A stretch of DNA of 64,000 bases from an uncultured Rhodobiaceae bacterium (GTDB lineage: Bacteria; Pseudomonadota; Alphaproteobacteria; RS24). Under the pieces are notes generated by a model. The model ran no database searches. It was not told the DNA's origin and saw only the letters and a list, made by a program, of their open reading frames with translations. Positions 31,431 to 38,013 of the stretch are shown here, piece by piece (within the stretch, counting starts at the first letter, position 1; every line of letters begins with the position of its first letter). The translations under genes and the position numbers were made by a program. The stretch lies in contig CALCUM010000002.1 in assembly GCA_937907245.1 (NCBI GenBank), positions 62,001 through 126,000 on the forward strand. The letters run 5' to 3'.

Positions 31431-31462
31431 GTGATTTTTGGGGGTAAACCGTTTTCGTTGGT

Positions 31463-31490
31463 TTGACTCTTTGCGACTCTGGGTTAAATA
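31463..31490 (+). promoter_or_regulatory. Candidate gcv promoter containing two GANTC sites
   Basis: TTGACT (31463-31468) as -35 and TAAATA (31485-31490) as -10 are separated by 16 bases, shortly before the riboswitch. The first GACTC (31465-31469) overlaps the -35, and a second (31475-31479) sits in the spacer, in a GACTC-N5-GACTC pattern. The -10 match is moderate. Confidence 0.5.
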
Positions 31491-31505
31491 AATACTTACA
31501 AGTGA

Positions 31506-31702
31506 CCCTCACGGGAGACGTTGATTTAGCCCTCGGGTTAAATCAAGGCCGAAGGAGCAACCGCCCTCGGAAACTCTCAGGCAACAGGACCGTGGGGCGA
31601 TGAAACTCTGGAAAGCAGGCTGCTGTGTGCGGCCTCACCGACGGGGTAAAGGCGCTTTTTTAAAGGGCCTCAAATCTCTCAGGTTCAAGCGACAGAGGAG
31701 GG
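31506..31702 (+). promoter_or_regulatory. Tandem glycine riboswitch
   Basis: Two consecutive glycine aptamers are visible before gcvT. The first has GGGAGA (31513-31518), GCCGAAGGAGCAA (31548-31560), CTCTCAGGCAACAGGACCG (31574-31592) and ends near CTCTGG (31607-31612). The second has the CACCGACGGGGTAAAGGCGC block (31636-31655), CTCTCAGG (31676-31683) and closes near ACAGAGGAGGG. CCTC (31633-31636) can pair with GAGG near 31695-31701, closing the second aptamer over a purine-rich ribosome-binding-like stretch. Glycine riboswitches usually switch on glycine cleavage genes at high glycine. Together with the promoter, this fills the only stretch of more than 300 bases without an annotated protein gene (31431-31748). 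Confidence 0.9.
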
Positions 31703-31713
31703 CGAGCTTCGAA

Positions 31714-31770
31714 ATGAATCGAGGCGCGCAACTTGGAGTCGCAAGAGTTTGGAACCGCAAAACCCGATAA
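31714..31770 (+). CDS. Possible 18-codon leader ORF overlapping gcvT start
   Basis: An ATG at 31714, twelve bases after AGGAGG (31696-31701) of the riboswitch's closing stem, opens an 18-residue frame that ends at TAA 31768-31770, 22 bases inside gcvT in another frame. It could be a coupling ORF that brings ribosomes to the gcvT TTG start, or chance. No family is recognisable. Confidence 0.3.
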   Translation: MNRGAQLGVARVWNRKTR

Positions 31771-32885
31771 AGCGAACCCCGCTGTATGATTTGCACCTCG
31801 AATTGGGGGGCAAAATCGTGCCTTTCGCGGGCTATGAGATGCCCGTGCAATACCCACTGGGCGTCATGGGCGAGCATTTGCACACCCGTGCCAAGGCCGG
31901 ACTGTTCGATGTATCGCATATGGGACAAGCCAAATTAGTCGCAAATAAAGCGGGCGAAGACGCCGCCGCTTTATTCGAGGCCCTTGTGCCGGGCGGCATT
32001 CAAACGCTGCAAGAAGGCCGCATGCGCTATACCCAATTGACCCATGAGACGGGCGGCATTCGCGATGATTTAATGGCGACAAGGTTTGGCGATACGCTTT
32101 GGCTGGTGGTCAATGCGGCGTGTAAAGACGACGATTTTATGCATATTTCCAGCGCCCTGAAAGAGGATGCGACCTTAGAGATTGCCGACCGCGCTCTGTT
32201 GGCTTTGCAAGGCCCTGCGGCGGGCGATGTCTTGGCGGAGCTGATGCCTGCCTCGACTGATTTGATTTTCATGCAAGCCGTTTGGACTAGCTGGTCCTTG
32301 CCAGACGGGGGCGAGAGCGTCGATGTTTTAGTGTCGCGTTGCGGCTATACGGGCGAGGACGGTTTTGAGCTTTCCATTGCCCCCGAACATGCAGAGATAT
32401 TGGCGCGCACGCTATTGGCGCACGCCGATGTGGAGCCTATTGGGTTGGGCGCGCGCGACAGTCTGCGCCTTGAGGCGGGCTTATGTCTCTATGGCCACGA
32501 TATTGATTTGACGACCAGTCCGGCGGAAGCCGATCTTTTGTGGTCCGTGCCAAAGCGGCGCCGCGCGGAAGCCAATTTCCCGGGGGCGGAAACCCTCAAC
32601 CAACATATTGAGGCGGGTGTCGCTAAAAAGCGCGTCGGTATTTTGCCAGAAGGCCGTGCGCCCGCGCGCGAAGGCACCGCTATCGAAAGCCTAGATGGCG
32701 AGCCTTTGGGCCAGATTACGAGTGGCGGTTTCGGCCCCACTTTAGGCGGCCCGCTAGCGATGGGCTACGTGCCTGCCGCCTTCAGCCAGCCAGATACACA
32801 AGTGCAACTTATTGTCCGCGGCAAGGCATTGCCGGCGCGTGTCGTCGCCATGCCATTTGTGCCGCAAAATTATCGAAAAGGGTAA
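31749..32885 (+). CDS. gcvT: Aminomethyltransferase (glycine cleavage T protein)
   Basis: The 378-residue T protein transfers the methylene group from the H-protein arm to tetrahydrofolate and releases ammonia. The N-terminal RTPLYDLHLELGGKIVPFAG is typical, followed by YEMPVQYPLGVMGEHLHTR, then GYTGEDGFELS near the folate site and LGARDSLRLEAGLCLYG. No ATG or GTG exists in frame between the riboswitch and the conserved start, so TTG at 31749 (GGAG ten bases upstream) is chosen. It opens gcvT-gcvH-gcvPA-gcvPB-rnhB. Confidence 0.92.
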   Translation: MEPQNPIKRTPLYDLHLELGGKIVPFAGYEMPVQYPLGVMGEHLHTRAKAGLFDVSHMGQAKLVANKAGEDAAALFEALVPGGIQTLQEGRMRYTQLTHETGGIRDDLMATRFGDTLWLVVNAACKDDDFMHISSALKEDATLEIADRALLALQGPAAGDVLAELMPASTDLIFMQAVWTSWSLPDGGESVDVLVSRCGYTGEDGFELSIAPEHAEILARTLLAHADVEPIGLGARDSLRLEAGLCLYGHDIDLTTSPAEADLLWSVPKRRRAEANFPGAETLNQHIEAGVAKKRVGILPEGRAPAREGTAIESLDGEPLGQITSGGFGPTLGGPLAMGYVPAAFSQPDTQVQLIVRGKALPARVVAMPFVPQNYRKG

Positions 32886-32888
32886 ATC

Positions 32889-33263
32889 ATGAGCAAAAAA
32901 TACACCAAAGATCACGAATGGGTGCAACTCGACGGCGATGTCGCCACCGTTGGTATTACCGATTACGCGCAAAGCCAATTGGGGGATGTTGTTTTCGTTG
33001 AAGTGCCAGAAGCTGGACGCCAAGTCGGCCAAGGCGATGATGCCGCCGTGGTGGAAAGTGTGAAAGCCGCCTCGGAAGTTTACGCACCGCTGTCTGGCGA
33101 AATTGTCGAAGGCAATGGCGCCCTAGAAGACAACCCTGCCATGGTCAATGAAGATGCCGACAACCAAGGTTGGTTCTTCAAGTTGAAATTGGCCGACGCC
33201 AGCGAACTAGATGGGCTGATGGATGAAGCCGCTTATGCAGACTTTTTGAAGGAACTCGACTGA
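32889..33263 (+). CDS. gcvH: Glycine cleavage system H protein
   Basis: The 124-residue lipoyl carrier shuttles the aminomethyl group between P and T proteins. [14 protein letters not shown] opens the protein. The lipoyl lysine is K59 in [19 protein letters not shown], and the typical C-terminal [10 protein letters not shown] follows. It starts 3 bases after gcvT, and its last base is the first base of the gcvPA ATG. Confidence 0.97.
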
Positions 33264-34618
33264 TGCGTTATTTACCCCTTACCGATACGGACCGCCAAAC
33301 CATGCTGGGCCAAATTGGCGTCGGCTCGGTGGATGATTTATTTGTAGATGTGCCCGCTTCGGCGCAGCGCGAGGGCACGGTAGATTTGCCGCGTCACCTC
33401 GGTGAGATGCAAGTTGAACGACAGCTCTCGGCCATGGCCGCCAAAAACATGACGGCCAGCTCAGTGCCGTTTTTTTGCGGGGCTGGCGCCTATAAGCACC
33501 ATGTGCCAGCCACGGTTGATCACATCATTCAGCGCTCGGAGTTTCTAACCAGCTATACGCCATATCAGCCTGAAATTACCCAAGGCACGCTGCAATATTT
33601 GTTTGAGTTTCAAACCCAAGTCAGCGAATTAACTGGCATGCCCGTGGCGAACGCCAGCATGTATGACGGCTCTACGGCAACCGCTGAAGCGGTGTTGATG
33701 GCGCATCGGGTGACGCGCAAAAGCCGCGCTGTTTTATCGGCGCGCTTGCATCCGCATTACACGGCGGTGGTTGAAAACCTCTCCGAAATGGGCGGTTTCG
33801 CCGTAGCGCAAAACCGCGTTGGCGATGCCAGCAAAGTCAGCGAAGCAGAAGATTTATTGGCGCTCATCGATGACGACACGAGCTGTGTGGTTATTCAAAA
33901 TCCAGATTTCTTCGGCAATGTGTCCGATTTTTCTGCGCTGGCAGCTGCCGTACAAGAAAGAGGCTGCTTGCTCATCGCCGTCGTGCCAGAGATTGTCTCG
34001 CTTGGGCTTTTAAAGCGCCCGGGCGATATGGGGGCCGATATTGTAACGGGCGAAGGCCAGTCTATCGGGAATGGACTTAATTTTGGCGGGCCTTATGTCG
34101 GTCTGTTTGCGGCCAAGCAAAAGCATATTCGCCAAATGCCCGGACGTTTGTGTGGCGAGACTGTAGATGCCGATGGCCAGCGCGGTTTTGTGCTGACGCT
34201 CTCGACCCGCGAGCAACATATCCGCCGCGATAAAGCGACGTCGAATATTTGCACCAATTCAGGTCTTTGTTCGTTGGCTTTCACCGCGCATATGACCCTG
34301 CTGGGCGGCAAAGGCTTGCGCCATTTGGCACAGCTCAACCATGCCCATGCGGTGCAATTATCGCAAAAACTGAGCGCCATTGAGGGTGTGGAATTATTAA
34401 CGCCTGCGTTCTTCAACGAGTTCTCTTTACGGCTTCCCACATCGGCAGCCGGCGTGGTGGAGGCTTTGGCTGAAAAAGGCGTCTTGGGCGGTGTGCCCGT
34501 GTCGCGTTTGTCGCCGGATGCGGGGCTAAATGATGTTTTGGTGGTGGCAGCCACCGAAGCCAATACACAAGAAGATATTGCCGCCTATGCAGCGGCCCTG
34601 AAAGAGGTGCTGGCATGA
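33263..34618 (+). CDS. gcvPA: Glycine dehydrogenase (decarboxylating) subunit 1
   Basis: The 451-residue N-terminal half of the split P protein pairs with GcvPB to decarboxylate glycine. Segments include [34 protein letters not shown] and [15 protein letters not shown], all typical of the alpha subunit. It shares the fold but lacks the PLP lysine, which is in GcvPB. It overlaps gcvH by one base and gcvPB by four (ATGA), consistent with equal production of the two halves. Confidence 0.96.
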
Positions 34619-36159
34619 GCGAGAAACAAACCTTTAGTGGCAATCGCGGTTTGCAATTAGAAGAGCCGTTGATTTTTGAAATTGGCTCGTACCAAAATTG
34701 CGGCGTCGACCTCGACGATGTGCCAGACGTGGCCTCTTGTCTGGGCGATTGTGCGGCCCCTGGTAACGCAGATCTGCCGGGTCTGTCGGAGCCAGAAGCG
34801 ATGCGCCATTTCGTGCGCCTTAGCCAGAAAAATCATGCGATTGATGCCGGCCTTTATCCGCTTGGCTCTTGCACCATGAAGCATAATCCACGGCTCAACG
34901 AGAAAATGGCGCGCCTGCCAGGCTTTAGCGATATTCATCCGCTGCAACCCCAAGCCACCGTGCAAGGGGCTCTAGAATTGATGGATGATTTGGCGCATTG
35001 GCTGAAAACCCTTACGGGTCTGCCGGCTGTAGCTTTGTCGCCTAAAGCGGGCGCGCATGGCGAGCTATGCGGCATGATGGCCATTCGCGCAGCAATTGAA
35101 GCCAAGGGCGAATTGGCGACGCGTAACCGTGTGCTGGTTCCTGAATCGGCCCATGGCACAAACCCTGCCACGGCCGCGCTTTTGGGCTTTAAAGTCGATG
35201 GCATTCCCGCCAACGCTGAAGGTCGTGTGGACTTGGCTGCCTTTAAAGAAAAGCTGGGCGACGATGTGGCCGCGATTATGCTGACCAACCCAAACACCTG
35301 CGGCTTGTTCGAGCGCGATATCATCGAGATTGCCGATGCGTTGCATGCCGTGGGCGGTTATTTCTATTGTGATGGCGCTAATTTTAACGCCATCGTTGGG
35401 CGTGTGCGCCCGGGCGATTTGGGCGTCGATGCGATGCATATCAACTTGCATAAAACCTTCTCGACCCCGCATGGCGGCGGGGGCCCGGGGTCTGGCCCCA
35501 CCGTTTTATCCGATCGTTTGGCGCCTTTCGCGCCGCTACCTTTTGTGGTGTCGGGCGAGGATGGCTTTTCTTTGGTGGAGACGATGGGGGATGCCCGATT
35601 GGGCGCGGATGAAAATCCGTTCGGCCGCATGGTCGCTTTCCATGGGCAAATGGGCATGTATGTGCGCGCCCTGTCTTACATGATGAGCCATGGCGCCGAT
35701 GGCCTGCGCCAAGTGGCCGAAGACGCTGTGCTAAATGCCAATTATATTTTGGCCAGCCTGCGCGACGTGATGACCGCCCCCTTTGATAATGGCCCTAAGG
35801 CACCGTGTATGCATGAGGCTTTATTCGACGATAGCTTCTTGAAAGACACCGGCCTCGACACATTGGATTTTGCCAAAGCGATGATCGACGAGGGCTATCA
35901 TCCGATGACCATGTATTTCCCGTTGGTGGTGCATGGCGCGATGCTGATTGAGCCGACCGAGACCGAGAGCAAAGCCTCCTTGGATTTGTTTATCGCGACG
36001 ATGCGCGATTTGGTCAAAGGCGCGAAAGAGGGCGATATGGCGCGCTTTAAAAACGCACCTGAGTTGGCGCCACGGCGTCGGCTAGACGAGACGCAAGCGG
36101 CGCGCAATCCGATATTGCGCTGGCACGAGCCGACCGCCAAGGCACAAGCGGCCGAGTAA
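34615..36159 (+). CDS. gcvPB: Glycine dehydrogenase (decarboxylating) subunit 2
   Basis: The 514-residue C-terminal half of the P protein carries PLP. The PLP lysine is K280 in [20 protein letters not shown]. Other marks are [17 protein letters not shown] (about 82-98) and [13 protein letters not shown]. Length and order match split-type GcvPB. The stop TAA shares a base with the rnhB ATG, so the downstream RNase gene is directly coupled to this operon. Confidence 0.97.
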
Positions 36160-36797
36160 TGGCACAAATCGAAGATTGGCAGCTAGAGCGCGAAAGCGGC
36201 TGGCCTGCCCGTCTTGTTTTTGGCGTCGATGAAGCCGGACGAGGCCCATGGGCGGGGCCCGTCACGGCGGCTGCGATTTGCTTGCCAGAAGACTTTGACT
36301 TGCCTGTCGATGACAGCAAAAAACTAACCGCGAAAAAGCGCGATGCGCTTTTTGAGCAACTCATCCCCTTGCCGCACGGCATTGGCGAGGCCAGTGTCGC
36401 CGAAATCGACGAGATTAACATTTTGCAAGCCACTTATTTGGCCATGGCGCGCGCGGTGGATGCTTTGGCGGCACAAATCGGCGCGCCGCATCATGTATTG
36501 GTAGATGGTAATCGGCTTGGCAAATGGCCGTTTTCGGCCAGTGCGATTGTGGGTGGCGATGGCCGCTCGCGCTCGATTGCGGCGGCCTCTGTTTTGGCCA
36601 AAGTCACCCGAGATAGGCAAATGCAAGCGTTGGATGCGGCGTTTCCGGGCTATGGCTGGGCTTCCAATAAGGGATATGGCGCCAAAGCCCATAAAGAAGG
36701 GTTGGAAAAGCTGGGTGTCACCCCCCATCATCGACGTTCTTATGCCCCCATTACCAAGATATTGGCGGCACAAACCCCGAACGAATACCATATGTAG
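36159..36797 (+). CDS. rnhB: Ribonuclease HII
   Basis: The 212-residue enzyme removes ribonucleotides and RNA-DNA hybrids. The catalytic DE motif is FGVDEAGRGPWAGPV (about 22-36), and KVTRDRQMQALDAAFPGYGWASNKGYG carries later conserved residues. It starts with a TAATG overlap with the gcvPB stop and has no promoter of its own visible, so it is probably expressed from the gcv promoter or from within gcvPB. This join of glycine catabolism and genome maintenance looks incidental but may put rnhB under riboswitch control. Confidence 0.95.
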   Translation: MAQIEDWQLERESGWPARLVFGVDEAGRGPWAGPVTAAAICLPEDFDLPVDDSKKLTAKKRDALFEQLIPLPHGIGEASVAEIDEINILQATYLAMARAVDALAAQIGAPHHVLVDGNRLGKWPFSASAIVGGDGRSRSIAAASVLAKVTRDRQMQALDAAFPGYGWASNKGYGAKAHKEGLEKLGVTPHHRRSYAPITKILAAQTPNEYHM

Positions 36798-36813: not shown

Positions 36814-36822
36814 TGTGGATAA
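36814..36822 (-). promoter_or_regulatory. Consensus DnaA box upstream of ccrM
   Basis: TGTGGATAA is an exact reverse complement of the consensus DnaA 9-mer TTATCCACA. It lies between rnhB and ccrM. A single box could serve transcription control by DnaA; chance occurrence is possible. Confidence 0.5.
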
Positions 36823-36834
36823 AATGAAATTTAA

Positions 36835-38013
<1,179 letters not shown>

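Follow-up and report, generated by a model that had tools for sequence, protein, structure and literature searches.

The promoter of the glycine cleavage (gcv) operon in the window, i.e., the entire 64,000-nucleotide stretch of DNA analysed here, is most plausibly (at a rough probability of 0.55, as judged from the sequence and its relatives) a GcrA/CcrM-type methylation-responsive sigma70 promoter that precedes a tandem glycine riboswitch. The operon probably represents an additional target of an already known regulatory system; the openly available main texts of the literature (PMC11711589 among them) yielded no description of CcrM sites within a gcv promoter.

The sequence of positions 31462-31490, TTTGACTCTTTGCGACTCTGGGTTAAATA, agrees with the initial annotation in placing GACTC at 31465 and again at 31475, with the first copy overlapping the hexamer TTGACT (Table 1). 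This -35 hexamer is good and the proposed -10 is weak, and a sigma70 scan of the region did not return the promoter; the relatives carry stronger -10 elements, such as TATTTT and TACATA, at the equivalent place, and the placing is further supported by the predicted transcription start, which would fall a few bases past 31490 and just 5' of the riboswitch. Both aptamers of the latter score above the curated RF00504 value and lie directly upstream of gcvT. Eighteen of 25 family loci also have a GANTC 95 to 330 bases past the start of the riboswitch; in the present genome, the leader copy at 31736 (GAGTC), shortly 5' of gcvT, overlaps a possible ribosome-binding GGAG. A TTAA-N7-CTTA sequence at 31484-31498, two bases off the full CtrA site TTAA-N7-TTAA, overlaps the gcv -10.

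Table 1. Features of the gcv-rnhB-ccrM region, with positions in the window.
Feature	Positions	Strand	Basis
-35 hexamer TTGACT of the gcv promoter	31463-31468	+	Sequence; TTGAC in 24/24 readable family promoters
GANTC site 1 (GACTC), overlapping the -35	31465-31469	+	-35-overlapping GANTC in 20/24 readable family promoters
GANTC site 2 (GACTC), in the -35/-10 spacer	31475-31479	+	Spacer GANTC in 23/24 readable family promoters
Probable -10 TAAATA, weak, 16-base spacer	31485-31490	+	Inferred from spacing and the relatives' stronger -10s
Tandem glycine riboswitch (aptamers 31502-31602 and 31606-31697)	31502-31697	+	Rfam RF00504, 61.6 + 36.9 bits, cut-off 32
Two more GANTC in the leader 5' of gcvT (GAATC 31716, GAGTC 31736)	31716-31740	+	
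gcvT, start codon TTG as called	31749-32885	+	Pfam GCV_T 3.6e-74, GCV_T_C 4.5e-21
gcvH	32889-33263	+	NCBIfam NF002270, TIGR00527
gcvPA	33263-34618	+	NCBIfam NF001696
gcvPB	34615-36159	+	NCBIfam NF003346
rnhB, ribonuclease HII	36159-36797	+	NCBIfam NF000595, 225 bits vs cut-off 167
ccrM promoter: TTGACG 36860-36865, 17-base spacer, GACTC 36869 and 36879, probable -10 CATGGT 36883-36888	36860-36888	+	Layout kept in relatives
ccrM, likely start ATG 36895	36895-38013	+	PDB 6pbd E 1.4e-153; PF01555, PF18755; start inferred

The genome encodes both the putative writer and the putative reader of such sites. The ccrM product matches the CcrM structure cited in Table 1, and possesses a methylase domain (PF01555, 4.1e-66) followed by a C-terminal RAMA domain (PF18755, 6e-18); the NCBIfam CcrM equivalog is its best family, but at a score of 612 against a cut-off of 830. 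GcrA (2.9e-52) aligns across its DNA-binding and sigma-binding parts to PDB entries 7ye1, 5yiu and 5yix, and is encoded in 23 of the 28 family genomes, while ccrM was found in 25. The region upstream of gcrA (L247, G000 C3) holds four GANTC in two close pairs, which recall the six described at gcrA of A. tumefaciens in the text of PMC11514494.

According to the published text, sigma70 polymerase is bound by GcrA, which brings it to promoters carrying m6A (PMC7403470). For C. crescentus, GANTC is described within 50 bases of 96 cell-cycle transcription start sites, and those with GANTC between -10 and -35 as switching on at 40-60 min (PMC4287350). An extended motif, YGAKTCK, was proposed for activation in C. 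crescentus and was not found by the same authors in B. subvibrioides (PMC7987155); it stands as a proposed one-species rule rather than an agreed defining feature. When judged by eye against the rule as worded there, neither gcv site of the present genome conforms to it on either strand, while the gcv spacer site of genus g3 does (CGAGTCG, lower strand). This mismatch with the C. crescentus motif, together with the modest signal outside the family (see below), counts against GcrA. One family genome (G018) encodes both CcrM and GcrA and has a gcv promoter without GANTC.

The glycine riboswitch was found in 42 of 61 genomes, and in 26 of the 28 genomes of the family. Twenty-four family gcv promoters were readable, the remaining four being left out because the upstream sequence reads N (G019), because the contig ends there (G026) or because no riboswitch was matched (G006 and G012). 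GACTC-N5-GACTC is present at gcv in all eleven genomes of genus g1 and in both of g6; the six genomes of g3 all carry an N6 pair, and the single g5 genome combines TTGACTC with a GAATC at N9. The -35 of g4 has turned into TTGACA, yet a single spacer GACTC is kept in three of its four genomes, which speaks for the GcrA/CcrM reading; the fourth has no GANTC. Overall, the spacing is N5 in 13 of the 24 promoters, and an N5 or N6 pair persists in 19 while adjacent bases changed. As both target sites are retained in relatives while the flanking DNA changed, the gcv promoter is probably tuned by CcrM. Selection on the sites is best supported by an ungapped alignment of the eleven g1 congeners on the -35, in which TTTGACTC, CGACTC and one single column are invariant and all else varies, the -10 included; three rows of this alignment have one or two extra bases, and the columns past the -10 are out of register.

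Methylation could also affect RNA polymerase itself: without any part for GcrA, m6A in the -35 and spacer would weaken the promoter, and hemimethylation on passage of the fork would briefly raise it. This explanation is possible, if somewhat unlikely. Site 1 places the methylated base within the -35 TTGACT, and TTGACTC is the form that is commoner outside the family (16 of 69 gcv loci). Furthermore, the A. tumefaciens gcrA promoter is described as repressed by CcrM, likewise in engineered E. coli (PMC11514494), and ctrA P1 of C. crescentus, with a GANTC near -29, as activated when hemimethylated (PMC4287350). Against direct action, it is the spacer site, kept across five genera, that outlasts the -35 site within the family (23 versus 20 of 24).

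The conserved sequence is also more specific than GANTC. In 22 of 23 family gcv promoters the spacer site has C as its N, indicating that something beyond plain GANTC is conserved, and a C precedes the site in 20 of 23; a slight preference for C before GANTC is described among B. subvibrioides GcrA targets in the text of PMC7987155. Both features are more than the plain GANTC rule needs and would suit a conventional transcription factor recognizing GACTC half-sites, to which methylation would be irrelevant; so would the 10-11 base repeat of approximately one helical turn. Such a factor is nonetheless improbable, since spacings of N5, N6 and N9 and the single site of g4 would be badly tolerated by a dimer, since Sphingomonadales ccrM promoters hold GAGTC, GAATC and GATTC besides GACTC, which is the degeneracy of CcrM, and since GANTC is otherwise rare in the window.

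This rarity is pronounced. The window holds 34 GANTC against 174 expected from shuffles, and just two copies of GACTC-N5-GACTC (31465-31479 and 36869-36883), of which shuffled windows hold a mean of 0.02, with none of 100 shuffles reaching two. In the whole genome (three contigs, 1,804,735 bases) the pattern occurs only at these two places, and three times if the middle base is left free (GANTC-N5-GANTC). The broader GACTC-N0..20-GANTC gave 10 matches on both strands against 69 for the reversed pattern, a comparison in which the reversed pattern contains CTNAG, itself described as depleted in Alphaproteobacteria (PMC3973325). When the 34 GANTC of the window were dealt randomly, at least two pairs 10 bases apart arose in approximately 0.0001 of trials; dealing the 10 intergenic GANTC within intergenic space gave 0.00025. 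These 10 of 34 lie in the 4,749 intergenic bases of the ORF map (p 0.00013); the text of PMC3973325 describes GANTC as depleted in genomes and over-represented between genes. Seven of the 10 belong to the gcv and ccrM regions, and with these regions removed 3 of the remaining 27 GANTC in the window are intergenic, without marked excess.

Within g1, 21 of 24 GACTC-N4..7-GACTC pairs lie at gcv or ccrM, the other three all being in one genome (G005). That the motif marks one-carbon or cell-cycle promoters in general, for which a search for enrichment had been suggested in the initial annotation, is rejected on these grounds, as the close pairs of g1, outside G005, are confined to gcv and ccrM. 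The same annotation saw its proposal at risk from a background frequency genome-wide or from absence of the motif upstream of gcvT in relatives; the motif is instead far above background, and is kept. Mere chance, i.e., a -35 reading TTGACTC by coincidence and an unrelated GACTC nearby, is cheap for the -35 match alone, TTGACTC being found at 10 of 137 intergenic TTGAC outside the family. It has very little probability in view of the N5/N6 pair kept in 19 of 24 promoters despite neighbouring changes, the rarity in the genome, the confinement of pairs to gcv and ccrM in g1 and the invariant blocks of that genus.

Two side observations concern related patterns elsewhere. A further pair in genus g3 (G023 C44, L248) lies in what appears, by eye, to be coding sequence. 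The looser TTGAC-N1..14-GANTC has 22 matches in the genome (loci L227, L230, L231, L232 and L235 among those inspected), and stands 5' of genes for a CtrA-like regulator, lon, an HU-like protein, lexA and rpsL; the CtrA-like regulator scores below its equivalog cut-off, and the CtrA-like and lexA matches also overlap other ORFs.

The second pair in the window belongs to ccrM, whose start region was read in 24 family genomes. The ORF call begins ccrM at ATG 36877, inside the promoter spacer. ATG 36895 lies six bases past the -10 in g1, g3 and g6; in g4 it lies seven bases past, and the upstream ATG there is out of frame with ccrM. This nearly constant distance and the frame mismatch argue for a start at 36895 and for the pair being promoter rather than coding sequence. 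Most likely, ccrM begins there on a nearly leaderless message. Of the 24 genomes, 22 retain both ccrM GANTC sites (G007 reads N in the first, and G017 has GACAC at the second), and the spacing is N5 in 17 of the 24 and N6 in seven; across the family the TTGACG-CATGGT distance is constant at 17, while the first GACTC shifts by one base. Sphingomonadales ccrM loci share this layout, these places often being occupied by GAGTC, GAATC or GATTC.

Other conserved sequences surround this promoter. A third GANTC (GAATC, in CATTGGAATC) at 36846-36850 starts 14 bases 5' of the ccrM -35, and is kept in g1, g3 and g6 and absent in g4. In 23 of 24 family promoters, a sequence that we take to be DnaA-box-like (TGTGGATAA, at 36814-36822 in the window) precedes the ccrM -35 by 32-58 bases. 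Many Sphingomonadales ccrM loci have TGTGGATAACT past the promoter.

The initial annotation took the gcv pair to be identical to one at the ccrM start, and proposed a methylation-sensitive element shared by both genes. Identity holds for this genome, where GACTC-N5-GACTC occurs at both, with the correction that the ccrM pair lies in the promoter and not at the start. Methylation sensitivity fits sites that fall in the -35 and spacer and the presence of CcrM and GcrA; one shared element does not fit, as spacing and placement differ between the genes. From the first T of the -35, the gcv sites lie at +2 and +12, one overlapping the -35 and the other in the spacer, and the ccrM sites at +9 and +19, both between -35 and -10. 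Genus g3 has N6 at both genes, and g6 has N5 at gcv and N6 at ccrM. Since spacings change independently in g6 and placement differs, the two pairs are not strictly one element, and an exact N5 as the shared element is ruled out by the differences between genera. The gcv and ccrM promoters have a type of signal in common, namely GANTC within the sigma70 footprint. The further idea that one-carbon or SAM supply is thereby tied to DNA methylation is speculation that found no support, the position of gcv, rnhB and ccrM in one direction offering a simpler link.

Gene order bears on what the sites may be selected for. All genes of gcvT-H-PA-PB-rnhB-ccrM lie on the + strand, with ccrM approximately 5 kb downstream of the gcv promoter; the rnhB start overlaps the gcvPB end by a single base, and between the rnhB stop and the likely ccrM start lie 97 bases, in which a terminator scan returned no + strand terminator-like site. 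With rnhB and ccrM lying downstream in the same orientation, the gcv promoter may supply part of the ccrM message. Furthermore, 19 family genomes have gcv and ccrM co-directionally on one contig, at a distance of about 5.3-6.4 kb (tables read by eye). The gcv promoter might accordingly serve as a distal ccrM promoter, GANTC at both ccrM-feeding promoters letting CcrM control its own level and glycine being incidental. This alternative is compatible with the GcrA/CcrM reading in mechanism, differs from it in what is selected, and is unlikely: ccrM has its own conserved promoter, g4 retains the cluster yet lost one or both gcv sites, and outside the family, where some genomes still have TTGACTC at gcv, the two genes are usually convergent.

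The latter statement derives from a count that allowed one gcv place per genome and left out G190, G287, G063, G363 and G171 as unsure. Outside the family, both genes were placed in 60 genomes; gcv and ccrM share a contig in 28 of them, and in 19 of these 28, from 13 families, they lie within 60 kb. In all 19, ccrM is downstream of gcv, convergent in 18, and the distance is 13-19 kb in 15. Thus, gcv and ccrM often lie near each other in the class, and are co-directional in this family.

To place the gcv sites in the wider class, a riboswitch-anchored pattern was applied to 385 genomes, of which 78 matched; 71 rows were kept as gcv riboswitches by eye, a subjective step, the others being dropped, and the 69 rows outside the family were counted. 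Rows from a first class-wide pattern, which was too unspecific, were not counted, and a promoter-like control that gave only 10 sites was dropped. Outside the family, TTGACTC occurs at 16 of 69 gcv loci and a spacer GANTC at three of 69. The former is a large excess over TTGAC anywhere in 1.4 Mb of loci (38/1853), and a moderate one over intergenic TTGAC (10/137, p 0.0017); given T at position 6, TTGACTC at 16 of 27 gcv against 10 of 25 intergenic sites is no secure excess (p 0.13). No association with the presence of CcrM was shown (15/58 versus 1/8, p 0.67), a comparison with few CcrM-less genomes. As proof of methylation control, class-wide TTGACTC at gcv is therefore rejected, given the p of 0.13, the mutual relatedness of the rows and the shortage of CcrM-less genomes. 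The paired arrangement is thus a property of this family, and a tendency towards TTGACTC across the class is suggestive at most.

If the gcv promoter is indeed of the GcrA/CcrM type, we infer that CcrM methylates both of its GANTC sites, and that passage of the replication fork would leave it hemimethylated until CcrM acts again. The methylated spacer site would most likely let GcrA, bound to sigma70 polymerase, open the promoter, and the site overlapping the -35 may have a direct effect on polymerase binding. The tandem riboswitch would then gate the transcript. Since the riboswitch gates after initiation, gcv would answer to the replication or methylation state first and to glycine afterwards, and a housekeeping one-carbon operon would, if this is true, be tied to replication state. 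It may even be envisaged that gcv-rnhB-ccrM is a feedback unit, in which CcrM, via methylation of the gcv promoter, sets its own dose and the one-carbon supply for its methyl donor, with glycine sensed by the riboswitch in the same leader. This notion, which arises because paired GANTC, nearly absent from the rest of the genome, occur in both promoters that would transcribe ccrM, is very doubtful. The GcrA/CcrM regulon is described as rewiring quickly between close relatives (PMC7987155, main text), and paired sites kept across genera of a small-genome family offer a testable counter-case; with two sites, one or none, the family also provides a natural series for the role of each GANTC position.

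The gcv promoter may be compared with four known arrangements. As in the GcrA/CcrM-dependent sigma70 promoters described for Caulobacter, there is a GANTC in the spacer with a C before it, and CcrM and GcrA are both encoded; the gcv promoter differs in having two sites, one of them overlapping the -35, in driving a riboswitch-controlled metabolic operon, in departing from YGAKTCK and in being known here from its sequence. With the published ctrA P1 of C. crescentus it shares a GANTC close to the -35, and differs in its second site within the spacer and in that a repressor site for CtrA, as at ctrA P1, is not established at gcv. The ccrM promoters of the family and of Sphingomonadales (TTGACG-N2..3-GANTC-N5/6-GACTC) similarly carry two GANTC approximately one helical turn apart, but have both between -35 and -10, the second beside the -10, and no riboswitch. 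Finally, the leader agrees with other RF00504 systems in having both aptamers of a tandem glycine riboswitch directly upstream of gcvT, and is set apart from them by GANTC sites that lie in the promoter, outside the RNA.
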